Both the position numbers and the translations under genes were made by a program. Shown here one piece after another: positions 15,292 to 31,275 of a stretch of 64,000 bases of DNA. Numbering within the stretch: the first letter of the stretch is position 1; the number at the start of each line of letters is the position of its first letter. The stretch lies in assembly GCF_001278705.1 (NCBI RefSeq), contig NZ_CP012600.1:1612190-1676189 (forward strand). The letters are read 5' to 3'. The notes under the pieces are model-generated. The model was not told where the DNA came from, searched no databases, and was given only the letters and a program-made list of their open reading frames with translations. Origin of the DNA: Bacillus gobiensis. Its GTDB lineage: Bacteria > Bacillota > Bacilli > Bacillales > Bacillaceae.

Positions 15292-15388
15292 CTAAGATGC
15301 TTTATGTTCCAGCCGCAATTTATCAGCAACCATCGCAATGAATTCACTGTTTGTCGGTTTGGCTTTGGACATGCTGACGGTATATCCA
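15292..15388 (-). pseudogene. spo0A: Displaced 3' end of spo0A (original C-terminal codons)
   Basis: On the minus strand this reads in frame from [16 protein letters not shown] through [12 protein letters not shown] to [11 protein letters not shown] is the usual C-terminus of Bacillus Spo0A. It has no start and no promoter. It is the piece of spo0A pushed 15.2 kb downstream when the element integrated. Confidence 0.92.
15308..15388. repeat. Attachment-site direct repeat, distal copy
   Basis: 81 bp shared with 30494-30574 at a constant offset of 15,186 bp. The first 71 bp are identical; one mismatch (15379, G versus A) is silent in spo0A. Together they are the attL/attR pair of the element. 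Confidence 0.93.
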
Positions 15389-15426
15389 GGCGTTATAGTA
15401 ACGTTTTTCGACTATTTTACGTAATC

Positions 15427-15458
15427 TTTATCGGTATGTACCCGCTAAGTTTATCGGT
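15427..15458 (+). repeat. Putative integrase arm sites, distal end
   Basis: TTTATCGGT occurs at 15427-15435 and 15450-15458, the same orientation as two copies near the other end (30403-30411, 30424-30432). Paired short repeats flanking att sites are typical arm-type binding sites of tyrosine integrases. Confidence 0.55.
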
Positions 15459-15540
15459 CATTTGCCGATGTGTTATAAGGCGATATTACCAAATATTGCA
15501 CAGTTGTACAAGCGTTATTTTTCGTATGTATTTGCGCAAA

Positions 15541-15574
15541 TAAAAAACTCCCCGGTCATATAGCCGAGGATTTG
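15541..15574 (-). terminator. Terminator at the end of the element's leftward operon
   Basis: On the minus strand CCTCGG and CCGGGG pair around an 8-nt loop, followed by AGTTTTTTA. It lies just after the last small gene (15584-15760). Confidence 0.65.
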
Positions 15575-15583
15575 CCATCTTGC

Positions 15584-15760
15584 TTACTTCACTTGTGTAA
15601 CCTTCCAGTCCATATAAGCATGAAAAACCTTGTCGCCGGTTGTCTTGTATTTTCTTGCGATCCTCCAAAGTTCCGTTTGAATATCCGGGAGAAGTTCTTC
15701 AAAACTAACATGACCATTCTCCTGCATGAATAATTCGAATTCTTTAACCATAGGCTCCAT
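15584..15760 (-). CDS. Small element protein, 58 aa
   Basis: ATG 15760 is preceded by GGGAGGTGA seven bases upstream. The 58-residue product (MEPMVKEFELFMQENG... ending HAYMDWKVTQVK) is acidic at the start and helical, and a terminator follows. It is the last gene before the distal attachment site. No known family. Confidence 0.65.
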   Translation of the reverse strand: MEPMVKEFELFMQENGHVSFEELLPDIQTELWRIARKYKTTGDKVFHAYMDWKVTQVK

Positions 15761-15873
15761 ATTCTCACCTCCCGTTTAATCCATTATCGGATAAAATACG
15801 GGACAATGGAACTATATGCGTAATTTGTCTAACAAAAAAAAGCGCGACTCCCCGTTAAGGCAGCCGCATTCCA

Positions 15874-16323
15874 TTAATTCAATAGCTTATTCAATTCCGC
15901 AAGCTGGTCGCTTACTTCTTCGTCCGTTAACCGTTTCGTCTTGCGCTGATCCTCGCTAACGATAGACATCTCGCTCTTGTTGACGAGCTTACCGATCATC
16001 TGATAATAAAGCTGAAGCGCCTTGATCGAACCAATTCCGTTGTTTCCTCCGCGAATAAGTTTGATAAGCATTGCGTCGACTTCGGATCGGTATGAATAGA
16101 GAGTAACGTCGCTGATTGCGTTTTGATACGCGATAAAGTTTCGGTCACTCTTGCGCCAATTGTACAGCGTTTTCGTGGAGATACCAACCTCTTCCGCGAT
16201 CTCTTCATATGAGCGCTTTTTACCTTCGACCTGGGCGGCAAGTTCGTTATTATTCAGAAGCCACGCAGCCTTTTTTTGTTGATCCGTTAATGATAGCTCT
16301 AATTCTTCCATTGATAGTGACAT
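15874..16323 (-). CDS. Terminase small subunit-like helix-turn-helix protein (phBC6A51 type)
   Basis: 149 aa. A helix-turn-helix SYEEIAEEVGISTKTLYNWRKSDRNFIAYQN occupies about residues 38-70. The rest (IKALQLYYQMIGKLVNKSE) is typical of the phBC6A51-type HTH proteins that phages use as small terminase-like DNA-recognition subunits. Good AAGGAGG before ATG 16323. No large terminase gene is in the window, so if it packages DNA it would need a helper phage. It could also be a simple regulator. Confidence 0.6.
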   Translation of the reverse strand: MSLSMEELELSLTDQQKKAAWLLNNNELAAQVEGKKRSYEEIAEEVGISTKTLYNWRKSDRNFIAYQNAISDVTLYSYRSEVDAMLIKLIRGGNNGIGSIKALQLYYQMIGKLVNKSEMSIVSEDQRKTKRLTDEEVSDQLAELNKLLN

Positions 16324-16727
16324 TATAGTTCCTCCTTGTATTTATTGATTTCCGCGATTAAATAGGCGTCATCGGCCTTTAACCGGTCATACTCGCGCTT
16401 AATTTCTTTTAATTGCTCGTAATTCTCGCCGTTACTTCGTTTGTAGTCATATGCTGCCGTACTCAACGTAACTCGGTAGCCAAGACGCGCAATTTGTAGC
16501 GCCTGCAATAAACGCCTTACATACCGGCCCGGATCCGATTCTGAGTCCGCCTTTTCGATCGTTTGGCTTGCGATTGTCATGCCGACCGCGAACGAATTAA
16601 TTTGCTGTTCAGCGTTCCATATAAGCGACAAATAATCGTTATACTTCGCAAATATCTCCGTATTAGCCGGCAAAACGGCATCGGCTTCGTTGCACAACGC
16701 AGTGTATTTCGCGACGTACTCATACAA
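16323..16727 (-). CDS. Element protein of unknown function, 134 aa
   Basis: Mostly helical, with a coiled-coil C-terminus (QLKEIKREYDRLKADDAYLIAEINKYKEEL). It starts at TTG 16727, overlapping the stop of the upstream small gene, and its own stop overlaps the next ATG by one base, so translation is coupled. No family recognised. Confidence 0.65.
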   Translation of the reverse strand: MYEYVAKYTALCNEADAVLPANTEIFAKYNDYLSLIWNAEQQINSFAVGMTIASQTIEKADSESDPGRYVRRLLQALQIARLGYRVTLSTAAYDYKRSNGENYEQLKEIKREYDRLKADDAYLIAEINKYKEEL

Positions 16728-16857
16728 CGGACTGCAGCGCTCTTATCAATACGTTAGCCAGTGAAATAGGGACGAAAGGTTTACGCGGTTCCGATATCCC
16801 AAGCGACTCCATTCGTTTTCTTAATTCCTCGATTTCTTTGCGGATTGCATCTGACAC
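16720..16857 (-). CDS. Small element protein, 45 aa
   Basis: GTG 16857 follows GGAGGTGATAAC. The product begins MSDAIRKEIEELRKRMESLG, a short amphipathic helix, and ends SLANVLIRALQSVV. The 8-bp overlap with the next gene indicates translational coupling. Unknown function. Confidence 0.5.
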   Translation of the reverse strand: MSDAIRKEIEELRKRMESLGISEPRKPFVPISLANVLIRALQSVV

Positions 16858-16898
16858 GTTATCACCTCCGAAAATTAAAAGAACGCCCCGGAAGGCGC

Positions 16899-17162
16899 TC
16901 ACTGTCGTATTACTTCGTCTCGGACATACCCGCAGAAAGTATCCGTTGCTGTAACGGAAATTGAATCGAACGGCTCAAGTAATTCGTCTAATGTGTATCC
17001 TGACGGAATCATAAAAACATGGCCGTTTACTTCAACCGTTAAATCACTTACTCCAGTATTAATCAAAACGAGATACTCGCATCGTTTTTTAAAAGTCTTT
17101 TCGAAATTACCGCTCCCACTGAAGCCCTCTCTCGCGTAAAAATACTTGTCGTATAATGCCAT
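16899..17162 (-). CDS. Element protein of unknown function, 87 aa
   Basis: ATG 17162 behind AAGGAGG. Predicted mostly beta: YLVLINTGVSDLTVEVNGHVFMIPSG resembles small phage structural or decoration folds, but this is only an impression. No family recognised. Confidence 0.6.
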   Translation of the reverse strand: MALYDKYFYAREGFSGSGNFEKTFKKRCEYLVLINTGVSDLTVEVNGHVFMIPSGYTLDELLEPFDSISVTATDTFCGYVRDEVIRQ

Positions 17163-17176
17163 TTTAAAATTCCTCC

Positions 17177-17803
17177 TTATTTGATTTCACCCTGCATCCA
17201 AGCGCTGTAAATCTCTCTATCGATGATCCCATACGGATTTGTACCATTGCCGCGATACGTATAAATCGGCTGATGAACGGATAATGACGGTTCGTTATCT
17301 TTTGCGGTCTTTTCATTGACGCCAATCTCGCGTACAAGATCGTAGTATTTCCCCTGCCCATCTACCATAATTAAATCGTGATAAGCTTTCGCGGCCTCTA
17401 AATACTCTTGCTTGGCCTTCGCGATCCTTTCAAGTGCCTTATCTTTTTCCGCGGCATGATTCGCTAAGATTTCCGCTTTAGCCAACCGTAAGACTTCGAG
17501 AGTTAGTTCGTTTTCTTTTACAGACTTGGACTGAAATACAACGCTTGACCTCTGTTGCGATCCGCTTACCTCAAGCCTTAGCGCCGCGACTTTCTTGCGA
17601 GCTTCGTTCTCTTTTTTTCGATTCTCTGCGGAAGGGTCATCGCCAAGTTGTTCAATTGCTGTGGCAAGTTCTTGTTCAGTTTCGGCTAGTTCCTGCGCGA
17701 TTGAATCGTTATAGCCTTTCATCTTCTCGCCGCTTGCTTCACGGCTTTGTTTAAGCGCTTTAAGTTCGTCAATTTTCCCCTGTAGTTTTTTCGAAAATTC
17801 CAT
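17177..17803 (-). CDS. Coiled-coil element protein, 208 aa
   Basis: Long charged coiled coils (about 1-75 and 85-150) with heptads rich in Glu, Lys and Ala, ending in a short globular tail with PIYTYRGNGTNPYG. Good AAAGGGAG before ATG 17803. The coiled-coil build could be a scaffold-like or DNA-associated protein. No family recognised. Confidence 0.6.
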   Translation of the reverse strand: MEFSKKLQGKIDELKALKQSREASGEKMKGYNDSIAQELAETEQELATAIEQLGDDPSAENRKKENEARKKVAALRLEVSGSQQRSSVVFQSKSVKENELTLEVLRLAKAEILANHAAEKDKALERIAKAKQEYLEAAKAYHDLIMVDGQGKYYDLVREIGVNEKTAKDNEPSLSVHQPIYTYRGNGTNPYGIIDREIYSAWMQGEIK

Positions 17804-17819
17804 TTGTCATCGTCTCCCT

Positions 17820-18305
17820 TTATCGAATAATTTTTTGCGGATTAAAAAAACGATCGAATAATAGTTGCCATCGTCCTTTAACCGTCCGTGCTTGTTCTAA
17901 CGCATCAAGCGCCTCATCCAGCGCCATTACTTCGAAGGGACTTGCATCGTCATCCCCGTACTCACCGGATCCAATCTCGTAAGCTGAAAATCGTTTTAGT
18001 AAACGCTGTGTTCCTCGGCTAAGTGCCGGATATAACGGAGGCTCGATCTCCATAACTTCGAATGCCAGCGGATTGACTACCGATATGTCAAAGTTAATGT
18101 GTAGCGTTATTACACCGTCAAGCCTTGCCGCAACTCTGAGCGCCCTTTGTAATGCGATGTTTCCTGCGTAACTTTCGTCGTTTCTGCGATCTCCTAACGC
18201 AAGAAAGACACCGCTTGCCTTAACGCCTTCGAAGTTCGATATCACGTAACTATATGCGGTATGCTTGTCGTCGCCGGCAGATGCGAGGTACAAAGAGTAC
18301 TTCAA
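17820..18305 (-). CDS. Element protein, possible RNase H-like fold, 161 aa
   Basis: The N-terminal half (YSLYLASAGDDKHTAYSYV, then GNIALQRALRVAARLDGVITLHINF) alternates strands and helices as in RNase H-like domains, but no complete set of catalytic acids is evident, so activity is doubtful. The TTG start at 18305 overlaps the TGA of the upstream gene (TTGA), a coupled start. Confidence 0.55.
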   Translation of the reverse strand: MKYSLYLASAGDDKHTAYSYVISNFEGVKASGVFLALGDRRNDESYAGNIALQRALRVAARLDGVITLHINFDISVVNPLAFEVMEIEPPLYPALSRGTQRLLKRFSAYEIGSGEYGDDDASPFEVMALDEALDALEQARTVKGRWQLLFDRFFNPQKIIR

Positions 18306-18661
18306 TCCGTTTCACCGCCTGCTTCTGCACTTTCTAGCGCTTGGATGCGTGTATCTATCGAAAGTAATTCCGCTGCTTGCCGCGTAGATCCGGCTCCGCC
18401 TTTGTATTCCGCTGCCTTCTCGTCATAAATACTCCGCAACTCACTAACGGACATGCCTTCGTATGGATCGGCAGGCTTTCCAGCGTCGTGGTTGCCGTTG
18501 TGTATGGCCGTATAAAGGGTGTAAACGTCCTTTAACGCCTGTTGATATTCGCTGTCTGTGACGGATCGATACAGCTTTAATGCGCCCTCATACCGCATGA
18601 CAACCTGTTTCGCGTCTATTAATTGGCGCTCAAGTTCCTTCCGCTCTTCTAACCAGTCCAT
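18302..18661 (-). CDS. Coiled-coil element protein, 119 aa
   Basis: ATG 18661 follows GGAGGAATTGTAA. Highly charged and helical throughout (EERKELERQLIDAKQVVMRY, AAELLSIDTRIQALESAEAG). It overlaps the next gene by 4 bp. Unknown function. Confidence 0.6.
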   Translation of the reverse strand: MDWLEERKELERQLIDAKQVVMRYEGALKLYRSVTDSEYQQALKDVYTLYTAIHNGNHDAGKPADPYEGMSVSELRSIYDEKAAEYKGGAGSTRQAAELLSIDTRIQALESAEAGGETD

Positions 18662-19015
18662 TTACAATTCCTCCTCGATTGTATTTTTACGACTCAACGC
18701 ATCGAGAGATAGTTGGATACAGTCTTTAATACCGTAATAGCTCTCGATATTTCTAATCTTTATATTTTTTGGCGGAGTGTAATTTCTTACTTTTCTTGAC
18801 ATTCGGATAATCGCGTCTTCTGTTCCTACTAGTCTTTTAATGTGCTGTACGGAATAGTCGAAGCCCATATCCCAGTTGTTATGATCCGCGATGTATATAG
18901 ACGCTATATAGATAATTTTTGAACCACCGCCCCATTCCTGGATACCGATACCTGTCCCGGATCCGTCCGTTGAAATGGATACTCTAAATCTGCGTCTTTT
19001 CGTTTTTACCTTCAT
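18662..19015 (-). CDS. Element protein of unknown function, 117 aa
   Basis: Starts KVKTKRRRFRVSISTDGSGTG, then IIYIASIYIADHNNWDMGFDY. The DGSG near the N-terminus and the strand pattern recall small RNase H-like proteins, like its neighbour at 17820-18305, but the evidence is thin. It abuts the next gene with no gap. Confidence 0.55.
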   Translation of the reverse strand: MKVKTKRRRFRVSISTDGSGTGIGIQEWGGGSKIIYIASIYIADHNNWDMGFDYSVQHIKRLVGTEDAIIRMSRKVRNYTPPKNIKIRNIESYYGIKDCIQLSLDALSRKNTIEEEL

Positions 19016-19171
19016 CAGCTTCGCCCGCCTTTAACTTTTCGAATAAATGCGTAGTCCAATCAATTCCGTCGCGCTTTGGATTGCTCAGACGTTTTTTTCG
19101 TTCAATCTGGCGCTGTTTTCGCTGTGGTAGAGCGTTAAATCTTACGTCCTTACTATATTCCGTCTTGCCAT
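18984..19171 (-). pseudogene. Small basic gene apparently frameshifted right after its start
   Basis: AGGGGTGA is properly placed before ATG 19171, but that frame ends after nine codons. A long frame one base off runs on to TAG at 18984, encoding a basic peptide (RFNALPQRKQRQIERKKRLS, then DGIDWTTHLFEKLKAG) that looks like real phage-type protein. One base missing just after the start would explain it. The alternative is that the frame is chance. Confidence 0.4.
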
Positions 19172-19189
19172 AAAATCACCCCTAAGAAA

Positions 19190-19762
19190 TTAAATAGATG
19201 CTACCTTATCTAATCCTTTAAAATTTTGCTCGATTACATACTCGGCGTGTTCCTCGAGCATCTTGTTTACGACTTCTTTTAATGGTTGTTCTGAAGTGAG
19301 CGCAATCACCCACGCAACCGCAGATAATGATTCGTCACTGAACACGTCGCGATCTCTATTAAAATAGAAAGTTATTAACGGTTTATCCGCTTTTGAAATA
19401 TTGCAGGATGCACACGCGATAACAAGATTTGATATATGATTTGTTCCGCCTCTACTTAACGGTGTGATATGGTCCATGTGATGCGATTTACCTGTTTCTT
19501 CTTCGGTCGCCCCACAATAGATACACTTACCGTCATGAGCATTGTAGATTGTTCTTATTTGGTCAACCGTTATCTCCATCGGTATGCCAGCCCGTGCAGC
19601 ACGCTCCCTCATGTGACGAAAAGCTAGTCGCGCTTTGTCTTGGAGATTACTTTTACACGCCTTGCACCGGTTTGTACGTTCATTTTTTACACGTCGGTCA
19701 ATTTCAAATTGGTCCAACGGCTTTATTTCGCAGCAAAGTCGGCATTTTTGGTTTTCAGTCAC
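19190..19762 (-). CDS. HNH endonuclease
   Basis: 190 aa. An N-terminal zinc cluster (CRLCCEIKPLDQF, then CKACKS) is followed by a classical HNH core: CIYCGA, HHMDHITPLSRGGTNHISNLVIACASCN. Such nucleases accompany phage terminases or act as homing enzymes. Its GTG start overlaps the preceding small gene by four bases. The full set of metal and catalytic residues is present, so it is probably active. Confidence 0.85.
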   Translation of the reverse strand: MTENQKCRLCCEIKPLDQFEIDRRVKNERTNRCKACKSNLQDKARLAFRHMRERAARAGIPMEITVDQIRTIYNAHDGKCIYCGATEEETGKSHHMDHITPLSRGGTNHISNLVIACASCNISKADKPLITFYFNRDRDVFSDESLSAVAWVIALTSEQPLKEVVNKMLEEHAEYVIEQNFKGLDKVASI

Positions 19763-19857
19763 GCTAAAACACCGCCGATCACGTACCAGGCTAAAATGAC
19801 GTACAAAGTTTTTTCACTTGCAAACGGCTTTACTGTCTTTTCATTTACATTTTTCAT
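19759..19857 (-). CDS. Single-span membrane micropeptide, 32 aa
   Basis: MKNVNEKTVKPFASEKTLYV leads into a hydrophobic end (ILAWYVIGGVLA). The stop TGA overlaps the GTG start of the HNH gene (GTGA), and AAGGGGAT lies upstream, supporting real translation. Function unknown. Confidence 0.5.
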   Translation of the reverse strand: MKNVNEKTVKPFASEKTLYVILAWYVIGGVLA

Positions 19858-19872
19858 TTCGTTTCCATCCCC

Positions 19873-20181
19873 TTAGTCTTTTTTAATCAGATTAATATTG
19901 TTTTTTGCCAACACGTCCGCAAGCATATTTGATAACGTTGTATTTTCGTCTTTTTCTCCGAATAACTCACGCTTTAATTGATGATGGTTAGAGTCTAATT
20001 CCACATCGCAATCAGATACGTTTCGTAGAGCAAGGATTAACGACTTATAAGCCGCGAAAATTGAGTTACAGCGTTCAAATGTACGATTCATTACCATCGC
20101 ATTTTCTTCGGCATCGATCAGCGTTGTTTCTGCTATAAACTCGGCCGGTCTGACGCGCTCGATTTTTTGTTTCAATAGCAT
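19873..20181 (-). CDS. Element protein of unknown function, 102 aa
   Basis: ATG 20181 has AAGGGGG at better spacing than the in-frame ATG 20187. The product is helical (ENAMVMNRTFERCNSIFAAY) with no recognised family. Confidence 0.55.
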   Translation of the reverse strand: MLLKQKIERVRPAEFIAETTLIDAEENAMVMNRTFERCNSIFAAYKSLILALRNVSDCDVELDSNHHQLKRELFGEKDENTTLSNMLADVLAKNNINLIKKD

Positions 20182-20272
20182 TGACATTTCCCCCTTTGTT
20201 ATGTTATTGTATATTGGGATAGACTTGCCATCCCTTCATAATTAACGTAGTTTTTTAGGCGTTTTATCTACT

Positions 20273-21163
20273 TTATCCGACAGTTTTTTCGAATTTTATT
20301 GCACGTTTTCTTTCTAACTGCAAATGTCTTTCGGAGTACTTTTCGCGAAAATATTGATCCATTTCTTCGGCCATCATTTTCTTTACTTGAACAGCGCCCG
20401 GCTTCCTTTCTTCAGCCGCTTTTACTGCCGCATCTATACGGTGTGATTTTAGCGACCTTTCCTCATTCGTACGATCCCTACGTCCATCTTCTTCATATTT
20501 TTCTAATTCTTTATTAGCTCCGATTAATTCTAGCGTTGCAGGCTCGAATAACCGTTCATGCTTTTCATAGTTTTCTTTCTCTTGTTTGTCACGAATATCT
20601 TTATAGGCAAAGACGGGCAGGTATGTTCCGTTAGCGTAGATTTTACTCGTCCGCTTGAACTCTGCGACCGCATTACTTTCGGCTTTTCTACATTTATGAT
20701 CACAATACTTTTGATCTTTACGGTTTGGCACGAAGTAGTTTAAACAGAAACGATGCTCGCACGGACGATATTTCCGCCGAGTGGCTTGAAGCTCTTCGCG
20801 AGTTATCCGACCTGCTTCGCGTTCAGTTAACAACATATCGATTAGATCCGGTAAAGTAAAATCGGCCCTTACAACGTATTCATGCTCAAGCTTTCGCCAT
20901 TCTTCCGCAGTTCGATTAATGATTTCTCGTTCCTGGGCTACACGTTCGATATTTTCCGCGACGTAATCAAGAATGCCCGCGAGCATATCCAATTGATCGG
21001 CCGGAGGAACCTTGCCTGTTTCTTCGAATTGTTCATCGATTGATCGGTCGATCGAGTCTGCCACACCTTTAAAATCCGTTACTGCAGCGCGTTCAAACTC
21101 CATTCTTAATGCGTATAATTCACTTGATTTCATTTTCATTGTTCTTGCGGTTTGCTGGCTCAT
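20273..21163 (-). CDS. Element protein with a C-x-C zinc-ribbon-like motif, 296 aa
   Basis: Helical N-terminal half, then a zinc motif CEHRFCLNYFVPNRKDQKYC followed by DHKC, a pattern seen in several phage-borne zinc proteins (C..C near F.P....KYC...C). The C-terminus is a long basic/acidic coiled coil. It follows AAAGGGGAAC before ATG 21163. Nucleic-acid binding is plausible; no function can be named. Confidence 0.6.
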   Translation of the reverse strand: MSQQTARTMKMKSSELYALRMEFERAAVTDFKGVADSIDRSIDEQFEETGKVPPADQLDMLAGILDYVAENIERVAQEREIINRTAEEWRKLEHEYVVRADFTLPDLIDMLLTEREAGRITREELQATRRKYRPCEHRFCLNYFVPNRKDQKYCDHKCRKAESNAVAEFKRTSKIYANGTYLPVFAYKDIRDKQEKENYEKHERLFEPATLELIGANKELEKYEEDGRRDRTNEERSLKSHRIDAAVKAAEERKPGAVQVKKMMAEEMDQYFREKYSERHLQLERKRAIKFEKTVG

Positions 21164-21200
21164 TTACAGTTCCCCTTTTTATTGATTTTTTATATTTTCA

Positions 21201-21229
21201 TTGACAATAGACCGATATTTTCGTATAAT
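21201..21229 (+). promoter_or_regulatory. Consensus promoter pointing antisense into the RepL-like gene
   Basis: TTGACA (21201-21206), a 17-bp spacer and TATAAT (21224-21229) match the sigma-A consensus exactly. It points rightward, while every gene nearby is leftward. A transcript would be antisense to the 3' end of the replication-like gene at 21263-22195. Confidence 0.6.
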
Positions 21230-21262
21230 GTTAATTGTAGAAGTATGAATAAAAACCTTAAA

Positions 21263-22195
21263 TTAATCGTTAAATAAAACCTTAATCGCTTCTAACGTTT
21301 CGTTGTTGCTCGCGAACACTACTGAAGGATTTATTATCACCTTCCTTTTACGGCTATCTGATTCATCCTCTACGAATTGGAAAATCGGCTTCCCATCGTA
21401 ACGTATTGCCCGTAATGCTGTTTTTAATGCGCTAGCTTTCGCGTATCCCAATTTATCCGCGAGTTCCCCTAAGCGCATAGGCTTTACATAGCCCGACACT
21501 TGTTCGTCAGGGTTATGCGATATAATGTTATATTTGAAGTTAACAAACGGAAGCACTGCGTAAATAAGGCCGAGTTGTTTAATCTGGCGACCATTATATT
21601 CACGATAAAGCTCTCGGACCGTTTTCCGGAATACCCGCGTATTTTGAAAATCGTTAACAATCGGCTTTACCTTTCCGAAGTCACCTCGATAAAAGTAACC
21701 TGGATTTACAGCGAGTTTCTCTTCGTCTTCCTCTATAATTCCGCAATCAACGATCTTCTTATAAAACTCATCGAATTTATTACGACTCATTTTCAACAAT
21801 TCGAACATCCCCTTTTTCGAAATATAATGTCCGTTGTCATGACGTAAGTACCCGTACGAGCTGTCGCGATCTGGATAACTCGTATAAGTCGCTAAGAAAA
21901 GAAGTCGCGCCATATCTGATTGCGTTAGTTCCGGAATACGTTCAAGCATCGTTTTACTTTGTTCAAAGAATACGTTAACGAATCCGCCGTGTTCCGCTTG
22001 GTGAACGTCAAGCTCCGTAATACCTTTTAGAGCGCGTTTCTGATTTTCGGTGTAAATCGGAGCCGGTTCGTAGTGTGACGCAACCTCTCCCGTTTCCGTA
22101 TTGAAAACGACCAGGTTACTTCGTTCATTCATAATTCGTCGGTAGGCTTCGCTATTTAAGCTGCGAAGAAATTTCTTGTCTCTCTGTCGGTCCAT
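21263..22195 (-). CDS. RepL-like winged-helix replication protein
   Basis: 310 aa from ATG 22195 (AAGGGGAG six bases upstream). The central part, MARLLFLATYTSYPD then GHYISKKGMFELLKMSRNKF and CGIIEEDEEKLAVNP, matches the winged-helix organisation of Firmicute plasmid/phage replication initiators of the RepL type. A second helix-turn-helix (MRLGELADKLGYAKASALKTAL) lies near residue 250. Two 17-bp repeats upstream could be autoregulatory or origin sites. Initiator of replication is the likely role; a pure regulator is the alternative. Confidence 0.6.
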   Translation of the reverse strand: MDRQRDKKFLRSLNSEAYRRIMNERSNLVVFNTETGEVASHYEPAPIYTENQKRALKGITELDVHQAEHGGFVNVFFEQSKTMLERIPELTQSDMARLLFLATYTSYPDRDSSYGYLRHDNGHYISKKGMFELLKMSRNKFDEFYKKIVDCGIIEEDEEKLAVNPGYFYRGDFGKVKPIVNDFQNTRVFRKTVRELYREYNGRQIKQLGLIYAVLPFVNFKYNIISHNPDEQVSGYVKPMRLGELADKLGYAKASALKTALRAIRYDGKPIFQFVEDESDSRKRKVIINPSVVFASNNETLEAIKVLFND

Positions 22196-22222
22196 TACAT
22201 TCTCCCCTTCCAAAATAATACA

Positions 22223-24371: not shown

Positions 24372-25076
24372 TCAATTTCTTCGGCAATGTCCTTCGACAT
24401 AATTTCCGTTTCTGTAGTAACCTTTGACATAATGGCGTCCAGGCCCGCAAGTGCCAGGCGCATCGACGTCCGGACTATCCTCGTCAATATCTACGTCAAC
24501 GTCAGGAATATCGCCCTTTTCTTTCTCTTTGCATTGACTTACATCGAATTTCTTGCTTACCGCGATATCTTTCTTTTTGACCGTAAATTTCTGATATTTT
24601 TCGGACCCTCTAATTGAATTGTATTTAATCGTTATCGTAAATTCGTCAGAATCAACGTATTTAAACGAAATATCATCGTCGCTTGTAAGTACGGATTCCG
24701 GTTTTTTACCCTCTTTCGTTTCAACTGTTACCTTTTGCGAATCCCAATGATAGCCATTCTCGTCCGTGTCCTCCTTAAAATCAAAGGTAAGGTAGTCTGT
24801 TTTTTCTTTAGAGTACTCATAATCAAAACAGCTCTGAGAAAAGTTTCTCTTTACAGAAAGTAGTTTTGTATATGACTCTTCTTTTTTCGCGGACTTCTTT
24901 TGTTCGACTGGCTTCGCTTGCGTTTGCTCCGCATTTGCTGGCGCTTTAGTTTCCGTTTCCGTTTGCGTTTGCTCCGTTTTCGTCGGCTCTTTTGGCGCCT
25001 CCGACGATTCTTCGTTTCCACACGCAGCTGTAAGCAGTAGTCCGGCTAATGTCATCGTTAATAAAGGTATTTTCAA
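24372..25076 (-). CDS. Lipoprotein encoded by the element
   Basis: 234 aa from TTG 25076 (GGGGGA upstream). A short basic start and hydrophobic segment lead into the lipobox LTAAC, so the cysteine is lipidated at the membrane. A Thr/Glu/Lys-rich linker follows, then a beta-rich domain with KRNFSQSCFDYEY, then a tail with repeated Tyr/Gly/His (RHYVKGYYRNGNYVEGHC). Phage-borne lipoproteins often block superinfection, but nothing in this sequence proves it. Confidence 0.75.
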   Translation of the reverse strand: MKIPLLTMTLAGLLLTAACGNEESSEAPKEPTKTEQTQTETETKAPANAEQTQAKPVEQKKSAKKEESYTKLLSVKRNFSQSCFDYEYSKEKTDYLTFDFKEDTDENGYHWDSQKVTVETKEGKKPESVLTSDDDISFKYVDSDEFTITIKYNSIRGSEKYQKFTVKKKDIAVSKKFDVSQCKEKEKGDIPDVDVDIDEDSPDVDAPGTCGPGRHYVKGYYRNGNYVEGHCRRN

Positions 25077-25097
25077 TTTAATTTCCCCCAAAAATGT

Positions 25098-25634
25098 TTA
25101 AAGTTTTTTCTCTAGTTTTTTGATTCTATTTTCAAATGATGTATTGTCTTTGACTCCGAGTTCTATAGCTTTTCTGCTTATTTTGATAGCTTCCTCAATT
25201 TCACCAGTACGTTCATAAGCAATAGCTAATTCTCTAAAAGAAGAATAATTAGGATCACCATGTTGATTACCCAAGTTTTTATTATCTTCTCTTTCTTGAT
25301 GAATGAATCTTGGAAAAAGGGCGCAATCTTTCTTTAGTACCTCAATCTGGTGATGATAGTATTTTGGATCTTCTTTAATTAGACGCTTATACTCACTTGC
25401 AATATGCATGTAAGAAAAATGTTTCATAACAATATCTGATTTTTGTTCTACTTCATTCAATACTGTTTTTAACTTGTTTTCTTTACTCTTTATAGTCTTT
25501 AACTTATTAATCTCATCTCTTAAACCGAAAGTATTAACAGAATCTTGACGTCTCTTTGTCATTTCTATAAAGTATTTTAGTCGTTTATCACGTTCGACAC
25601 TTTGATTTTTCTTATTATTGAAAAGACCAAACAT
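25098..25634 (-). CDS. Element protein with a C-terminal TPR-like repeat, 178 aa
   Basis: A lysine-rich N-terminus is followed by a tetratricopeptide-like unit FRELAIAYERTGEIEEAIKISRKAIELG and a final coiled coil. TPR units bind peptides or partner proteins. It has good AGGGGGA before ATG 25634 and lies just before the lipoprotein gene, so the two may be cotranscribed. More AT-rich codon use than its neighbours suggests a different source. Confidence 0.65.
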   Translation of the reverse strand: MFGLFNNKKNQSVERDKRLKYFIEMTKRRQDSVNTFGLRDEINKLKTIKSKENKLKTVLNEVEQKSDIVMKHFSYMHIASEYKRLIKEDPKYYHHQIEVLKKDCALFPRFIHQEREDNKNLGNQHGDPNYSSFRELAIAYERTGEIEEAIKISRKAIELGVKDNTSFENRIKKLEKKL

Positions 25635-25885
25635 CTTAATTCCCCCTACTGATCATCTTGACTTGCTTCTTGTCGTTAACAACTGCAACTGGCGGCAATA
25701 ACACGATAAGACTCCCTCCTTTATACCCAAAATATAATATACCATACTTATCCAAAAATTTGTTCGCAAGATATAATCGGAATCGATCTCATATTTGAGC
25801 CAGTGGCCGGCATCTAACACAATCTACCGTTGGCGCGGAAGGCTCCGTTTGGCGCCGGATCATCGGACATGTCCTCCTCTATCGT

Positions 25886-26146
25886 CTATAGTCCGAGATA
25901 TGCCCACCGATTCCTTATTTTAGTTTTCACGTACTCTTCCTGCCATGCTCTCGTTTTAGCTTCAATCTCACCGAATAATTCCTGCGCCTTCGTTGCGTCT
26001 ATCTCTCCGCAGCCAACAAATGCGCGTTCACTTACGGATGGAAGAATAGATAGGAAATACTTTGCGTTTACATAGACATTGCGGTTATTACCCGGGAGGC
26101 TTACGATATAGCCTCCGTTTTGTTGTTTTTCGAAAATAATGTTCAT
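25886..26146 (-). CDS. Element protein of unknown function, 86 aa
   Basis: Third of three short genes read leftward from the divergent promoter at 26762-26790. ATG 26146 follows AGAGAGGG. Contains FEKQQNGGYIVSLPGNNRNVYV, beta-rich, then a helix. No family recognised. Confidence 0.6.
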   Translation of the reverse strand: MNIIFEKQQNGGYIVSLPGNNRNVYVNAKYFLSILPSVSERAFVGCGEIDATKAQELFGEIEAKTRAWQEEYVKTKIRNRWAYLGL

Positions 26147-26350
26147 TTAGACAGCCCTCTCTATAGATATCGTTTTTGTTTCGCCCCAATAATAAATTTC
26201 GAGTAACCAGATCGCCTGCTGTATTGCTTTCGCGCCTGAGTATGACGGGCATTTATGGTAGGCTTCGTACTCCCCCGTTTGAAATTCCTTTGCAACTTCG
26301 GTTAGGTACGCTTCATAAAACGGGATTAATGCGCTAATTACGGCATCCAT
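26147..26350 (-). CDS. Element protein of unknown function, 67 aa
   Basis: Its ATG overlaps the stop of the preceding gene (TGATG) and GAGGAGG lies upstream, so it is translationally coupled. Helical (FYEAYLTEVAKEFQTGEYEA) with tryptophan and tyrosine residues in the middle. Unknown. Confidence 0.6.
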   Translation of the reverse strand: MDAVISALIPFYEAYLTEVAKEFQTGEYEAYHKCPSYSGAKAIQQAIWLLEIYYWGETKTISIERAV

Positions 26351-26712
26351 CAGACAGCCTCCTCTATCGTCTCCGGCAGTACCGTTCCCTCTAGTTCCGA
26401 GAAATATTTCATCGCTTCAATGAATGTCATGGTTGAGAGGCATAATAAATCGGGATCTTCCTGCGCGCGGATACTAAAGCAAAATAACTCTGTTTCCTTA
26501 TCGCCTAACTCGTAACTGCCGTCAGCGTTCCGATGCATTATAAGAAGCTGTACATATTCGCAATCAGCTTTTAATACAAGGCCGTCTCCGAAATGTAAAA
26601 CCTCTTCTGTTGTGCGGCAGCCTTCCGAATCAAGCTCACTCGGCCGGATGATGTAAGGTACGGTAATAACCTCCGGTTGATTCTCGTCAGAAATCCATTC
26701 AATTTTATTCAT
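26350..26712 (-). CDS. Element protein of unknown function, 120 aa
   Basis: ATG 26712 (MNKIEWISDE) has AAGGAGG eight bases upstream; the longer frame to 26790 covers the promoter and is rejected. First gene of the leftward transcript, directly opposite the Xre regulator. Early genes here often encode antirepressors, but no motif supports this. Confidence 0.6.
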   Translation of the reverse strand: MNKIEWISDENQPEVITVPYIIRPSELDSEGCRTTEEVLHFGDGLVLKADCEYVQLLIMHRNADGSYELGDKETELFCFSIRAQEDPDLLCLSTMTFIEAMKYFSELEGTVLPETIEEAV

Positions 26713-26761
26713 TTGCGATTCCTCCTTGTGATTCCGACTACATTTCGTTGTCGTTAAATAC

Positions 26762-26790
26762 ATATTACTCTGACTACGAAACGATGTCAA
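26762..26790 (-). promoter_or_regulatory. Leftward early promoter of the element
   Basis: On the minus strand TTGACA (26785-26790), 17 bp, TAATAT (26762-26767). A GACTAC motif (26772-26777) lies between the boxes and another (26736-26741) lies downstream. Confidence 0.75.
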
Positions 26791-26797
26791 TACTTTT

Positions 26798-26826
26798 TTG
26801 ACTACTTTTAATAGTCAGCTTATAAT
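26798..26826 (+). promoter_or_regulatory. Rightward promoter of the Xre regulator with a palindrome
   Basis: TTGACT (26798-26803), 17 bp, TATAAT (26821-26826). The spacer contains the inverted repeat GACTA-N7-TAGTC (26800-26816). Only 7 bp separate its -35 from that of the leftward promoter. Confidence 0.8.
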
Positions 26827-26849
26827 TAGCGCAGGAGGTGACGGAAATC

Positions 26850-27065
26850 ATGCGAGTAAAATCGAATTTGAAGGCGATATTAAATGAACGGGAGATGTCG
26901 ATACGCGAATTAGAGGCGAAAAGCGGACTTAAATTTGAAACGTTGAGGCGCCTGTATAACGATGAAACTAAACAATATCAACGCGACACGATCGGTAGGA
27001 TATGTGAAGTCTTGGACGTGGAGATATCGCAATTACTTATATTAGTAGAAGATGACGGAGAGTGA
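26850..27065 (+). CDS. Small Xre-family repressor-like regulator
   Basis: 71 aa from ATG 26850, eight bases behind GGAGGTGA. The whole protein is one Cro/Xre helix-turn-helix: NLKAILNEREMSIRELEAKS, then FETLRRLYNDETKQ. It is the only recognised rightward gene of the element and is divergent from the leftward genes across overlapping promoters with GACTAC motifs, the usual geometry of a lysogeny switch. Confidence 0.85.
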   Translation: MRVKSNLKAILNEREMSIRELEAKSGLKFETLRRLYNDETKQYQRDTIGRICEVLDVEISQLLILVEDDGE

Positions 27066-27373
27066 ACCTCCGTTTTTTCTTTCTTAACAGATTGCGGAAA
27101 CACCGTCATATCAACGGTCGTGGCCGGCTAAGTTCGGTAGGCTAACCGTTACACTACACGGTTCTAAGTATGGTAGGTACTGTTACGGAGGTGTTCGATA
27201 AGTGCGGTAGTTACACGGTTTAACCCCGGAGTTTTAAAAATTTTATCGCGGAATTTTTTACCCTGGGAAACGGAAAATAATTCTCGCTCTCTTGGGGGGC
27301 CAGGCGGACGGGATGAGCCGCGACCTACCCCCGCCGGTCAAAATAAAAAAGCCGACCGTCTTGGCCGACCATT
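27066..27373. other. Non-coding region between the Xre regulator and the XerC-like gene
   Basis: About 310 bp with no supported gene. It has an AACCGT / ACACGGTT inverted repeat (about 27147-27167) and repeated CGGTAG/GGTAGG words. Just before the XerC-like stop there is a GGTCGGC-rich T-tailed stretch on the minus strand (27340-27372) that may terminate transcription, although its stem is imperfect. Confidence 0.4.
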
Positions 27374-28210
27374 TTAATCGAATATATTTGCGACTGCTTG
27401 CGCCTTCTCTTCTTCGCTTGGAGTTGAGTACCACGCAACCATATCCGCGCTACTGTGTCCCGTTAAGCTCATGATCGTTGCCATGTCTACGCCTTTATCG
27501 ACGAGCGCTTTAACGTAGCTATGTCGCAACTGATGCGGATGCACGTTGTATTCGGAGAGCATCGCCTGGACTGCACGCACACTCACTCGCTTACCTAACG
27601 ACGATAGGAACAATGCGGGAATGGCGTCAGCCCGTTGATCTAAGTACTGCGTGATCGCTCGTCTAGTGTCCGCAGGTATCGGCACATAACGTTCCTTGTT
27701 ACCTTTAGCATGACGTACATGTAGCATGCCTTTGCGTTCGCTTACGTCTATGTCATCGCGGTCTAGCGCTACCAGCTCCGACACACGTAGGCCGCAGCCA
27801 AGCAACGTCATTATGATCGCATGGTCACGCTTGTTACGTTTGCGGTCAGTCTCCCGGATAATTCTATTACGCGTACTCTTATCGATCCATTCCGGGGCTT
27901 TACTCGTTAGCTTGGCCGGCTTAGTTACGCGAATATCAGCAACTGCGGCATCGTTACCGGACCACCGGCAATATGATCGTATTGCTGCGAGTTCTCTATT
28001 TACACCGGATGCACTGCGCTTCTCTACCGTTTCCAGGCGCTGTATGTAGAACTGTACGTCTGACCGGGCGAAGGTTGTAAGATTCGCGCCGCTTCCGTCA
28101 AGATAATCCGCAAACTGTTCGAGTGAAAGGCGATATGACTTAATCGTGTTTGGCGCCTTGCCCACTAATCCTTCCGCAATAAACTGATTAATGACCGCGT
28201 TTGTTTCCAT
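27374..28210 (-). CDS. XerC/XerD-like tyrosine recombinase
   Basis: 278 aa. A SAM-like N-terminal core-binding domain (about 1-95) precedes the catalytic domain with Arg in GCGLRVSELVAL, Lys in HAKGNKERYVPI, HQLRH, GHSS and the Tyr nucleophile in AWYSTP. All catalytic residues are present. Being the second recombinase of the element and far from the attachment site, it is more likely a dimer resolvase, or it works at another site. Three TTATACGCA repeats lie upstream. Confidence 0.85.
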   Translation of the reverse strand: METNAVINQFIAEGLVGKAPNTIKSYRLSLEQFADYLDGSGANLTTFARSDVQFYIQRLETVEKRSASGVNRELAAIRSYCRWSGNDAAVADIRVTKPAKLTSKAPEWIDKSTRNRIIRETDRKRNKRDHAIIMTLLGCGLRVSELVALDRDDIDVSERKGMLHVRHAKGNKERYVPIPADTRRAITQYLDQRADAIPALFLSSLGKRVSVRAVQAMLSEYNVHPHQLRHSYVKALVDKGVDMATIMSLTGHSSADMVAWYSTPSEEEKAQAVANIFD

Positions 28211-28300
28211 CGTAATACCCCCGTTAAATAATTATGCGCAACTTTTTTCCGGTGTTATTCGCCGTAAATGGCGGGTATCTGCGACTGATCTTACAATTAT

Positions 28301-28340
28301 TATACGCATAATTCTAATTATACGCAAGTATTATACGCAT
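28301..28340. repeat. Three TTATACGCA repeats upstream of the XerC-like gene
   Basis: TTATACGCA occurs at 28301-28309, 28319-28327 and 28332-28340, with a variant TTATGCGCA at 28233-28241. On the minus strand each copy reads TGCGTATAA, so each contains an extended -10 box; TTGCGT-17-TATAAT is a credible leftward promoter. They look like iterons or an operator array. Confidence 0.65.
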
Positions 28341-28504
28341 GTTTCAACCCTGGGATTTCGGAGGCAAGCGCACGCGGCCGGCGCAAGGCTGACAAATCGC
28401 GGAATATAGGTAAACTTCGGAAGGGAATCGGTTGACATATCGTTATCTGTGCGGAGATTCAAGCCGTTGGTCACAAGCGTATTTTCACTTGACTCGACGT
28501 CGAG

Positions 28505-29191
28505 TCATTCGAAAGCCTTCCGGAATTTATCGAACAAACTTACCGGCGCATTTAGGCGAGCTTTAATCGTAAACGCCGCTTTACGGAATGCTTCGTACAG
28601 ATAGCCGTCCAGCTTGCGAATTTTACCGTGTTTAAGCTTTAAGACGACCGCGTGCCAAGCTTCTACGAAAGGCTCCGCATGATCTTCGAGTATAATCGCT
28701 GGATCTACGGAAGCTTTAGCGCGAAGCAATATACCGTAATACTTATAAATATCGTCTGCTTCAAAGTAGCGACTCATCGCGGAGTATATTTCGGCTGGCA
28801 GCGCATTTTTTAAGGCTTCGGACGGGATTACCGTATCTTTATATGTATTATTATTTATGTTTCTAGACGGAGCTTCTTCGGTATGACATTCCGGTGTGAC
28901 ATGCGCCAATATCTCGATCAAATTAGACGTCTGCCTGCGGTCGCCCGTCTGACGCATCCGTTTCGATTGACGGATGATTCCGAGCTGTTCCAGGCGATTA
29001 CATACGCGAATTACTTGACGGCGTGACTTGCCGACAAGCTCTGCGATAGTTGACTTCGCAAGAAAAGACCGGCCGATTTCCTTGCAGCTATAACGCGATA
29101 ATACGTCAAGGACTTCCGTCTCGGTTGCGGTTAGTTGATGATTCCGCTTGTGAGCGCGGACTGTGGCGTTTAGTTCTTCGATTGATTTCAT
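28505..29191 (-). CDS. Winged-helix replication-type protein, 228 aa
   Basis: Start ATG 29191 (GGGGAG upstream) gives MKSIEELNATVRAHKRNHQL, then a MarR/helix-turn-helix-like wing (LTATETEVLDVLSRYSCKE; KSTIAELVGKSRRQVIRVCN; LEQLGIIRQSKR). The C-terminal half is helical. The N-terminal HTH with tail resembles replication or partition proteins of Bacillus phages and plasmids. Its leader faces a possible small RNA (29298-29349), which would fit copy control. Not firmly assigned. Confidence 0.6.
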   Translation of the reverse strand: MKSIEELNATVRAHKRNHQLTATETEVLDVLSRYSCKEIGRSFLAKSTIAELVGKSRRQVIRVCNRLEQLGIIRQSKRMRQTGDRRQTSNLIEILAHVTPECHTEEAPSRNINNNTYKDTVIPSEALKNALPAEIYSAMSRYFEADDIYKYYGILLRAKASVDPAIILEDHAEPFVEAWHAVVLKLKHGKIRKLDGYLYEAFRKAAFTIKARLNAPVSLFDKFRKAFE

Positions 29192-29262
29192 TTCGTTCTC
29201 TCCCCGTTTAGAGAGCGCACACCCGTACATATGTTCGTTAAAAACCGCATAATGAAGAAACG

Positions 29263-29291
29263 TTGACTTCAACGATTTTTCGCGATAATAT
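29263..29291 (+). promoter_or_regulatory. Rightward promoter of a possible small RNA
   Basis: TTGACT (29263-29268), 17 bp, TAATAT (29286-29291). The -35 lies inside the inverted repeat CGTTGA-CT-TCAACG (29261-29274), a likely operator. Confidence 0.65.
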
Positions 29292-29297
29292 GTAGTT

Positions 29298-29349
29298 ACC
29301 TAAGTAAATCTGGCGTTTGGCTGTTCCCGCAGCCGGCGCTCTTTTTTTG
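29298..29349 (+). ncRNA. Putative ~50-nt small RNA in the int-rep intergenic
   Basis: About 50 bases run from the promoter at 29263-29291 to a terminator: GGCTG / CAGCC stem with a second GCG / CGC pair and a run of seven T's (29312-29348). No frame is coded. It is antisense to the leader of the downstream replication-type gene, the layout of plasmid counter-transcribed RNAs. Confidence 0.45.
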
Positions 29350-29353
29350 TTTT

Positions 29354-30331
29354 TTATATTTTTAGATTATTTAAAGGCGAATGTCTTTGGTATTTCTTCG
29401 CGACTTCATCGTCGGTAAAATCCAAGTATGCTTTTTGCGTTACCTCTACATTAGAATGGCCGAGTATTCGCGATAAGGTTACAAAGTCCCCGCCATTTAA
29501 GAGGTAATACTTAGCAAAGTTATTGCGCAATTGATGCGGAGTCACTTCAATACCCACAGAGTTAGTGATCTTTTTTAATCCTTTTTCAAACGCACTAACA
29601 TCCTGCTTATTTCCTCTATTTGTCGGAAACAGATATGCGCTATCACTGAAGCGATCTCTATATTGCATCCATCTCCGTAAATCCGTAGACAGCTTGTCCG
29701 AAATAAACACATACCTTTGCTTCTTGTTTTTAGGATTGGTAATTAAAATCGACTTCGCTCTAAAGTCTAAATCCTCCGGCTTCAATTCCACGCATTCACC
29801 GATCCGAATGCCGGTATCTAATATCAATCGCAGAGAAATCCATATACGATAGCCGTGGAAAGTAGACGTATCTATCGCGCCAAACAATGTTTTTAGTTCT
29901 TGTGGAGAAAGAAGCCGTTTCTTTTTCCTTTGCGGCTTAATATTCGCAATCGCGCTCGCTGGGCTTTCCTTGATTTCTTTTTCGGCCTCCAAGAAATTAA
30001 AGAACACCTTTATATTGCGCAAGTAGTTCGCTATTGTCGTATCGCTGATCGGTTTCGTACGGTCGGACCGTGAATCCGGATTGTTAGACGCCTTGCTATC
30101 GTTGTTAGAAACTACGGTATATTTGCCGCGTTCCCGTAAATGTTTGATGTAATTTCGGATATGTGCTGGCTTTACCTCGCGGGGATCTTCTATCTTAAAT
30201 TCATTGCGGAGGTACATCGAAAAGAGACGGAGAGTTTGATCGTAACTTTTCTTCGTCTTATCGGATAGGTTTTTTGAATCGCAGTAAATCATGAAATTAT
30301 CGAACTGAAATTCGAACTCATTAAACAACAA
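29354..30331 (-). CDS. Tyrosine integrase of the element
   Basis: 325 aa, adjacent to the spo0A-proximal attachment repeat. N-terminal core-binding domain (about 10-130), then catalytic Arg in LDTGIRIGECVEL, Lys in NPKNKKQRYVF, HQLRNNF, LGHSN, and Tyr in TQKAYLDF. All catalytic residues are present. It very likely catalyses integration into spo0A and excision from it. It probably starts at a TTG behind GGGGG. Confidence 0.9.
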   Translation of the reverse strand: MLFNEFEFQFDNFMIYCDSKNLSDKTKKSYDQTLRLFSMYLRNEFKIEDPREVKPAHIRNYIKHLRERGKYTVVSNNDSKASNNPDSRSDRTKPISDTTIANYLRNIKVFFNFLEAEKEIKESPASAIANIKPQRKKKRLLSPQELKTLFGAIDTSTFHGYRIWISLRLILDTGIRIGECVELKPEDLDFRAKSILITNPKNKKQRYVFISDKLSTDLRRWMQYRDRFSDSAYLFPTNRGNKQDVSAFEKGLKKITNSVGIEVTPHQLRNNFAKYYLLNGGDFVTLSRILGHSNVEVTQKAYLDFTDDEVAKKYQRHSPLNNLKI

Positions 30332-30402
30332 AAACGCCCCCTTTTTCCGCGGTTACATACGGTAAAGAGGACGTAAAATATAGTCGGTAAGTTTTCGCAA
30401 CA

Positions 30403-30432
30403 TTTATCGGTGTGTTTCCGATATTTATCGGT
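30403..30432 (+). repeat. Putative integrase arm sites, spo0A-proximal end
   Basis: TTTATCGGT at 30403-30411 and 30424-30432, matching the pair near the distal end. They lie between int and the att repeat. Confidence 0.55.
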
Positions 30433-30477
30433 AACTTCCGTGTGGTGTAAACCTTCACAAACGTTGATACACCGCCA

Positions 30478-31275
30478 TTATGACGCGTTCTTCTCCAGCC
30501 GCAATTTATCAGCAACCATCGCAATGAATTCACTGTTTGTCGGTTTGGCTTTGGACATGCTGACAGTATATCCAAACAATGAGGAAATGGAATCGATGTT
30601 GCCGCGGCTCCAAGCAACCTCTATGGCGTGACGGATTGCGCGTTCTACCCTGCTTGCTGTCGTGTTGAATTTTTTTGCAATATCTGGGTATAACACTTTT
30701 GTGATGCTGCCTAAAAGTTCAATATCGTTATAGACCATGCTGATCGCTTCACGCAAATACATATACCCTTTAATATGTGCTGGTACGCCAATTTCATGAA
30801 TAATGCTTGTAATGCTTGCATCAAGATTTTTCTTTTTCGGCTCCGGCTGAGGTCTGATGAAACTGCTTTGAGAAGCCGACCGGTGCATAGACGGCTGTCC
30901 GTTTCCGCTTACCTGACGAATATGCCCGACCAAATTTTCCATATCAAACGGCTTGAGAATAAAGTAAGAGGCGCCGAGTTCCACAGCCTTTTTTGTTACA
31001 TCCTCTTGGCCAAAAGCTGTCAGCATAATGACGTTTGGCTGTTTATTCAGCTGGGTTGACCTTACTCTTTCAAGAACAGCAAGTCCGTCCAGATGAGGCA
31101 TAATAATGTCCAGAACAAGCACATCAGGCTCTTTATCTTTAAATAAAGAAAGACAGTCCTGTCCGTTATATGCAACGCCCAGTATTTCCATATCCTCCTG
31201 GCCGTTAATGTATTCACTTAAAAGTCCTACAAGCTCACGATTGTCATCAGCTACACACACTTTAATTTTCCCCAC
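30478..31275 (-). CDS. spo0A: Sporulation master regulator Spo0A, with an element-supplied C-terminus
   Basis: 265 aa, full length. Receiver domain with acidic DD (ADDNRELV), phosphoacceptor Asp in [12 protein letters not shown] and Lys in [11 protein letters not shown]; hinge; then the highly conserved DNA-binding domain ([40 protein letters not shown]). The last 31 codons are a copy brought by the mobile element and end LRLEKNAS where the displaced original has LRLEHKAS. Phosphorylated Spo0A starts sporulation and controls biofilm genes. GTG start behind GGGAGG; three 0A boxes upstream. Confidence 0.97.
30494..30574. repeat. Attachment-site direct repeat, spo0A-proximal copy
   Basis: Second copy of the 81-bp repeat, inside the 3' end of functional spo0A. 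See 15308-15388. Confidence 0.93.

Follow-up and report, generated by a model that had tools for sequence, protein, structure and literature searches.

The closest described systems are the dusA-associated integrases and islands, in which, according to the passages describing them, one integrase family is devoted to a single conserved host gene, the element supplies the gene end that it replaces, conserved direct repeats are present, and prophages as well as a type I restriction island occur among the cargo (PMC4482086). In Firmicutes, mobile elements also occupy sporulation genes, as the accounts of skin, SPbeta/spsM, gin and yin relate in the parts available (PMC4191935, PMC5595907, PMC10747680). 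Here, we propose, with a probability of roughly 0.83, that a 64,000-nucleotide stretch of the Bacillus gobiensis genome (contig NZ_CP012600.1; the window in what follows) holds an integrated mobile element (15,186 bp, counted from one repeat to the other) that belongs to a family dedicated to the sporulation gene spo0A and docks there with a rebuilt gene and an insulating leader. The features named for the dusA islands recur in the spo0A elements. The window element, however, is inserted in spo0A and not in dusA, and the family uses the 3' end of its target in Bacillota, whereas dusA is entered at the 5' end in Proteobacteria (the two sets of integrases being compared by description only); the dusA passages mention no leader hairpin, and the spo0A family has one. 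Skin-type elements, in the excerpts cited, split their target gene, whereas the spo0A element, whose integrase is of the tyrosine type, rebuilds its target, the regulator that heads the cascade.

Our literature search returned no report naming spo0A as an attachment (att) site, most subscription journals lying outside its scope, and a prior report may exist; the word spo0A is absent from the main text of Abe 2014 and 2017 (PMC4191935, PMC5595907). We found no earlier description of a spo0A-dedicated family in the literature searched. A first-pass annotation of this DNA knew of no other element aimed at spo0A; the insertion is not a one-off, its integrase family being widespread.

The gene spo0A (30478-31275, minus strand) is an intact open reading frame (ORF) of 265 amino acids (NCBIfam TIGR02875, spore_0_A, E=3.5e-129), the last codons of which are provided by the element. 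A repeat search found a single long direct-repeat family in the window, at 15293-15388 and 30479-30574 with a spacing of 15,186 bp, beside five unremarkable families of 25-33 nt at 74-79%. Compared base by base, the copies at 15308-15388 and 30494-30574 are identical at 80 of 81 positions: a perfect stretch of 71 bp (15308-15378/30494-30564), one silent mismatch (15379/30565, G/A; ACC/ACT, Thr), and nine further matching bases (15380-15388/30566-30574). Beyond this core, the copies differ at 6 of the next 15 bases outward. The inner copy (30494-30574) forms the junction between spo0A and the element, whose body extends from 15389 to 30493. The outer copy, by repeat and ORF reading, belongs to a bare spo0A tail (15292-15388, minus strand) that ends ...LRLEHKAS* and is preceded by sequence unrelated to spo0A; a hairpin stem at 15134-15159 (minus strand), followed by a T-run, is the original spo0A terminator, now 15 kb from its gene. 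The first-pass annotation had described both this repeat and the placement of one copy within spo0A and the other in a stranded tail beside a terminator, and the base-by-base comparison, the intact ORF and the hairpin bear it out.

Past the shared core the two tails end differently, the inner as LRLEKNAS and the outer as LRLEHKAS. The outer ending is common to many relatives and the terminator has remained beside it, so the stranded tail (EHKAS) with its terminator reads as the host's own and the tail in the working spo0A (EKNAS) as the element's copy.

The element is thus bounded on either side by direct-repeat att sites whose sequence a host gene shares, and next to one of them stands an intact tyrosine recombinase, as is expected of a site-specific integrative element. 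This integrase (29354-30331, minus strand; 325 amino acids; Pfam PF00589, E=4e-31) adjoins the inner copy, as had been noted from the sequence earlier. In alignment A1, R176, K201 and H266 are invariant and R269 nearly so, residues that we take to be catalytic, and GHS and KAYLDF are present in the sequence. The 9-mer TTTATCGGT occurs exactly five times in the 64 kb, and four of the copies lie on two arms just inside the repeats, at 30403-30411 and 30424-30432 on one and at 15427-15435 and 15450-15458 on the other. Because four of the five sit at the two element ends, we read them as arm-type sites, two per arm, to which the integrase likely binds. We suggest recombination by the integrase between the element's attP and an attB in the last spo0A codons. 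Since attP would carry its own copy of the spo0A tail with a stop codon, insertion would rebuild an intact Spo0A and push the host tail and terminator to the far end, an outcome that both junctions display.

Relatives of the integrase place it in a family with a constant address. Scanning GTDB contigs with the integrase gave 202 relatives, from which 79 loci were kept; in 77 of them spo0A or its tail, on the same strand, ends shortly before the integrase, and at the other two the contig ends 183 and 211 bp before the integrase. The distance from the spo0A stop to the matched integrase start is 105-309 bp, or 133-235 bp without L074 (an N run) and L081 (a partial match). Named hosts include Bacillus spizizenii TU-B-10, Anoxybacillus, Lysinibacillus, Paenibacillus, Sporolactobacillus, Desulfosporosinus and Clostridium, among others. 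In a tree of 95 recombinases, built with 77 of the 79 loci and the window (short or broken matches were left out), the 78 labelled spo0A-adjacent, a label that includes the contig-edge loci L105 and L123, fall together on a single side of a branch supported at 100/99; long branches were flagged among the outgroup. On this evidence, the spo0A-adjacent integrases are one branch spanning Bacillus to Clostridia, and the window integrase, which follows spo0A within about 300 bp on the same strand, falls inside it. In IMG/VR, 32 relatives occur on viral contigs of 10-51 kb, mostly near one end; a spo0A piece precedes the integrase in 7, and the remaining contigs are cut there. For the integrase, the best protein matches listed from phage and plasmid collections have less than 31% identity and all matches there less than 60%, so that no isolated phage in these collections is shown to use the spo0A site.

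Between spo0A and the integrase, folding predicts a terminator-like hairpin (30334-30374, minus strand), the 3' arm of which contains the integrase Shine-Dalgarno sequence, AAAAAGGGGGCG, and the T-run of which meets the integrase TTG start. Folding of the integrase-start region at 78 loci (the window and 77 others) gave a mean z-score of -4.34, with 57 loci under -3 and 65 under -2. The stretch just upstream passed these thresholds in 6 and 14 of 77; among 300 further gene starts that have a Shine-Dalgarno sequence, 16 and 29 did so (mean -0.37). Some of the 300 may themselves be integrase starts, at loci where the integrase is not at position 10001, which would make this control the stricter. 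By a permissive pattern applied to the best hairpin, without a matched control, the Shine-Dalgarno sequence falls in the 3' arm at 69 of the 78 loci, at least four T occur in the six bases after the stem at 64, and both hold at 60; some of the misses are mis-centred, the matched start not being the true integrase start. Seventeen aligned leaders share nine predicted pairs, five with changes on both sides, and their covariation score of 0.498 compares with 0.275 in shuffles (none of 500 as high) and at most 0.241 when slid; these 17 of the 78 are related, were chosen for similar length, and yield one nine-pair stem. Alignment folding of the 17 recovers the outer nine pairs only, the inner stem being misaligned.

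Most likely, then, the leader hairpin ends spo0A transcripts and hides the integrase start from them. It would act as the replacement terminator of spo0A and silence the integrase on transcripts entering from that gene, and by doing both it would insulate host and element from each other. In IS10-type fold-back, outside transcripts fold and hide the region of the transposase start; the spo0A-element hairpin differs in standing before an integrase behind a fixed host gene and in its added T-tract. Terminator T1 of Tn916, in the passages available on it, likewise lies at the element end and blocks element genes downstream of a host promoter, guarding replication and conjugation genes in an element that inserts in many places (PMC11658703). 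Here too, hairpin and T-tract stand between host promoter and element genes, the arrangement of an insulating terminator, and an insulating role fits T1 and fold-back alike. Unlike T1, the spo0A-element hairpin overlaps the integrase Shine-Dalgarno sequence, is tied to one fixed site, and would also terminate spo0A.

What else might the hairpin be? One option is a DNA inverted repeat bound by the integrase or an excisionase, with no RNA role. The 5' arm often holds the arm-type motif TTTATTGG (by eye), and an attL region overlapping integrase control sequences is known from KplE1, where, in the excerpts on intS (PMC2951348), the protein autoregulates its promoter, whereas the spo0A family conserves an RNA hairpin. 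A DNA site has no need of a T-tract (64/78), of a Shine-Dalgarno sequence in the 3' arm (69/78) or of G-U pairs, and we regard this exclusive form as unlikely; DNA and RNA roles may coexist. A second option, which was the mechanism initially considered and was set aside on account of the hairpin, is that the strong spo0A transcription at the onset of sporulation reads into the integrase gene and triggers excision when the cell commits itself to sporulating. The integrase does lie close behind spo0A on the same strand (77/79 loci), with the host terminator displaced. Such coupling needs the opposite of a strong intervening hairpin, usually with a T-tract and a buried Shine-Dalgarno sequence, unless antitermination overcomes it, and we hold this reading to be improbable.

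Surveys at increasing taxonomic breadth show where the integrase is present. All 44 genomes of the genus have spo0A, and in a DNA search the 43 other than this one have it once, without a second piece, which removes the concern that relatives carry the repeat without an insertion. A protein search with the tail, covering part of the genus only, gave a weak fragment in a genus member (G002), far from its spo0A: 32 codons, 75% identical (L216 1507-1602). The surrounding stretch has no long frame, and the fragment may be a scar left at a secondary site. Integrase matches were found in 8 of 80 genomes of the family (E at most 1e-30), 13 of 397 of the order (1e-35), and 15 of 398 of the phylum (1e-40, with alignment), where by similarity and adjacency only three are clade members (the window's own genome, G497 and G463). 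In the family set, spo0A directly precedes the integrase in 6 of 8; in G070 (L026) contig edges cut off both spo0A and the integrase, and the 34% integrase of G047 (L029) has no spo0A nearby and lies outside the clade. In the order set, the integrase adjoins spo0A in 11 of 12 genomes besides our own and is separated from it by an inserted ORF in the twelfth. We discarded L035 (G399) as an exception to adjacency: its truncated integrase follows spo0A at a distance of about 2.2 kb, and the intervening ORF is transposase-like by eye. G463 has two full-length spo0A-like genes (C1:325563 and C5:75113), a broken integrase following the first.

Constant adjacency, in a clade that spans the phylum, could also be taken to mean that spore-formers have the integrase as a resident of their spo0A locus, where it would be no mark of a mobile element. 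The patchy occurrence (8/80, one of them outside the clade; 13/397; 3 clade members in 398), the different cargo found at the same place, and the flanking spo0A tails in 20 sequences make this very improbable.

Both spo0A tails are present, 4.5-15.2 kb apart, in 20 of 113 sequences examined, most of the others having too little far-side DNA to tell. Among 20 genomes chosen for their integrase matches, a second, partial tail was found in 14, at distances of 2.1-41.7 kb, and one of these 14 (G677) has another integrase lineage; five have one tail and one has a full-length paralogue. The two sets overlap, so that some elements are counted in both. A tail survey of 199 genomes of the order matched 196, 11 of them twice. 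Five of the 11 carry a clade integrase; the second match is a full-length paralogue in G083, 89 kb away in G208, a far fragment in G002, and 0.9-3 kb away in the other three, so these six are not all scars. G677 has a distant integrase lineage (about 27% identity), with two tandem tyrosine recombinases behind spo0A (L178, L176, L166; 1863068-1904961) and a further recombinase next to the outer tail, at a distance of 39.7 kb; its sequence points to independent use of the spo0A site by a second integrase lineage. In L096, a second integrase fragment lies beyond the outer tail, indicating that insertions pile up at spo0A. A gut survey reports enrichment of the Spo0A C-terminal Pfam domain among mobile elements, in a section where transfer of sporulation genes is proposed (PMC6907783). 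The att tails described here may offer another reading of that enrichment.

The locus itself is read from an assembled genome, and a misassembly, or a local duplication by homologous recombination, might be thought to have made the second tail. The genome is one contig of 4,597,587 bp in which a spo0A DNA search matches only two places, both at the element ends; phage-like genes lie between them, arm sites stand at both ends, and since the same layout occurs in unrelated genomes, such an artefact is scarcely credible. Spo0A acts before any skin-type excision could. A skin-like element that breaks a sporulation gene until its developmental excision is just as implausible here, even with sigK, spsM and gerE insertions known in Bacillus (PMC4191935, PMC5595907, in the parts available), because spo0A is intact rather than split and the recombinase is of the tyrosine type where a serine recombinase is expected (PMC5595907). 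The window's sequence and the relatives agree with what had first been supposed, a mobile element at the 3' end of spo0A that leaves the gene whole.

Paired tails also bear on the site of exchange. The shortest shared cores (L044, L079, L080) start, on the element-arm side, at codons for N-S-E-F-I-A-M, and in L044 and L080 the element-side letters are common up to GAATTC, which suggests exchange 3' of it; the crossover probably falls within the codons of a 12-residue stretch near the spo0A 3' end. In 14 of 20 tail pairs the same 18 residues are encoded with up to 16 of 54 bases different, and it is thus seemingly for its protein that the borrowed tail is kept. In the other six pairs, that of the window among them (EKNAS for EHKAS), residues have changed.

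The cargo at spo0A appears interchangeable, with prophages, satellite-like elements and defence islands in the same place. Scans of ORFs (ten chosen long ones from G425, five each from two elements, and ten from four) gave the following. The 38.9-kb element of G425 is a prophage with genes for portal, major head, tape measure, tail and endolysin. B. spizizenii TU-B-10 (G033) carries type I restriction genes in an element of about 11.7 kb (L042 5470-17174, by synteny with G036 and G005). The PADLOC candidate HEC-05 lies in G075, ApeA with MrcB/HNH and FRG proteins in G217, and a Y-family polymerase, an FtsK-like protein and a primase in G248. By gene content, then, elements of 2-42 kb carry varied cargo: one is a prophage, one a type I restriction island, and others are candidate defence islands.

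Several points weigh against our proposal, among them the limits already given for the Shine-Dalgarno and T-tract counts and for the covariation set. The mobility of the element and the activity of its integrase are predicted from sequence. In one subgroup (L080, L082, L084, L086-L089) the core hairpin precedes the Shine-Dalgarno sequence, so that sequestration is not universal; L082 and L087-L089 were nevertheless counted as having it in the arm, through outer pairing that reaches it. No convincing integrase promoter was found in the window, the best candidate having 9 of 12 consensus bases. Several integrases are broken, those of G060, G062 and G070 carrying stops, and G033, which has the closest integrase (78%) at spo0A, has no outer tail, for which reason its element may be locked in. 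Finally, a covariance model of the leader (R1), built from the 17 aligned leaders only, window included, with rough E-values over 52 sources, matches the window leader at 30329-30387, which is one of its own sequences, and, of 39 held-out loci, has its match where the leader is in 19 and misses it in 20. With so few recovered, R1 is a strict test of any further match.

Several features behind spo0A and its tails look like scars of past insertions. Further leader hairpins and broken integrase starts lie, by eye, behind several of the 20 outer tails (L044, L084, L094, L096, L099, L122). In Bacillus genomes near B. spizizenii that lack the integrase, the spo0A terminator is CGTCTTTTATTTATTGG...GATAAATAGGAGGCGTTTTG or close to it, the same design as the leader. 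R1 matches it in eight of nine species of this group (L012, L013, L008, L016, L018, L005, L014, L015; E 1.3e-5 to 4e-3), with L241-L243 as repeats of three of them; the ninth, L011, gave 0.77 and thus no match. R1 also matches G136 (L269, E=5e-7), where the first integrase codons are still present, and L261 (1.3e-4), a palindromic match best on the strand opposite spo0A (0.072 on the spo0A strand); the best remaining match is 0.19. The hairpins behind spo0A in L004, L006 and L007, of the genus, look similar by eye and are not matched by R1, and no integrase match was found behind the spo0A terminators of the B. spizizenii-like group. Of 44 loci without an integrase, 13 have arm-like 8-mers in the 250 nt that follow spo0A, against a shuffle mean of 1.9 (maximum 5) and 2 of 44 in each of the upstream and further-downstream controls; the independent cases are fewer than 13, since five come from the B. 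spizizenii-like group. L003 (G037) and L019 (G011) share an arm-like stretch around TTTATCGTAATTCCGATGAATTTTTCG behind spo0A, probably the scar of another element; G037 has a 24-27% recombinase further on and G011 none matched.

We lean, by a modest margin over even odds, towards the view that the spo0A terminator of the B. subtilis group (so named from closeness to B. spizizenii) is a relic: an ancient insertion would have decayed, leaving its integrase leader hairpin, Shine-Dalgarno sequence included, as a domesticated terminator. The alternative is a host terminator that elements took over at some time in the past. The decayed element is favoured by the fossil in G136 and by a Shine-Dalgarno sequence with no gene to serve. 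More generally, docking and decay would have recurred in spore-formers, each round changing the 3' region of spo0A anew.

One of the best-studied bacterial regulators thus has a 3' end that serves as a landing site across Bacillota, and, as far as these genomes tell, spo0A is an old, little-noticed landing site for prophages and defence islands. It provides a fixed address at which unseen prophages, satellites and defence islands may be found in spore-formers. The docking rule for an essential developmental regulator would be simple: bring codons, bring a terminator, and hide one's own integrase. The integrase could also serve as a site-specific tool for Bacillota.

In the window element itself, 25 ORFs are listed between the repeats, 24 of them on the minus strand, and Pfam and PHROGs scans covered 20 of the 25. 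From the integrase towards the outer repeat, they include a helix-turn-helix (HTH) or replication-initiation-like protein (28505-29272, minus; phrog_1835), a second tyrosine recombinase of 278 amino acids outside the spo0A clade (27374-28210, minus), a Cro/CI-type regulator divergent from the next genes (26838-27065, plus), a phrog_9501 protein with a weak match, below the Pfam cut-off, to phage replication protein O (21263-22213, minus), an HNH endonuclease (19190-19762, minus), and at the far end an HTH protein (15874-16323, minus) whose best PHROG is a terminase small subunit (phrog_7344) and whose best Pfam match is a transposase HTH. Among the 20 ORFs scanned there were no capsid, portal, tail or large terminase families, and the element does not qualify as a complete prophage. 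Satellites of the phage-inducible chromosomal island (PICI) kind have an integrase, a divergent regulator, a replication gene and a small terminase, and no structural genes. The layout of the window element resembles theirs; because the terminase call is insecure, being a PHROG match only where Pfam prefers a transposase HTH, we do not file it as a satellite. PADLOC on ten element ORFs returned HNH-type matches, one weak Cas4-like match and nothing else, and the element DNA had no match in a phage collection. An ORF at 24372-25091 has, by eye, a lipoprotein-like start. Beyond the outer tail, a small ORF at 10840-11074 resembles, by eye, one that lies behind the outer tail of Mesobacillus L080 (16615-16875), and host gene order seems to resume there.

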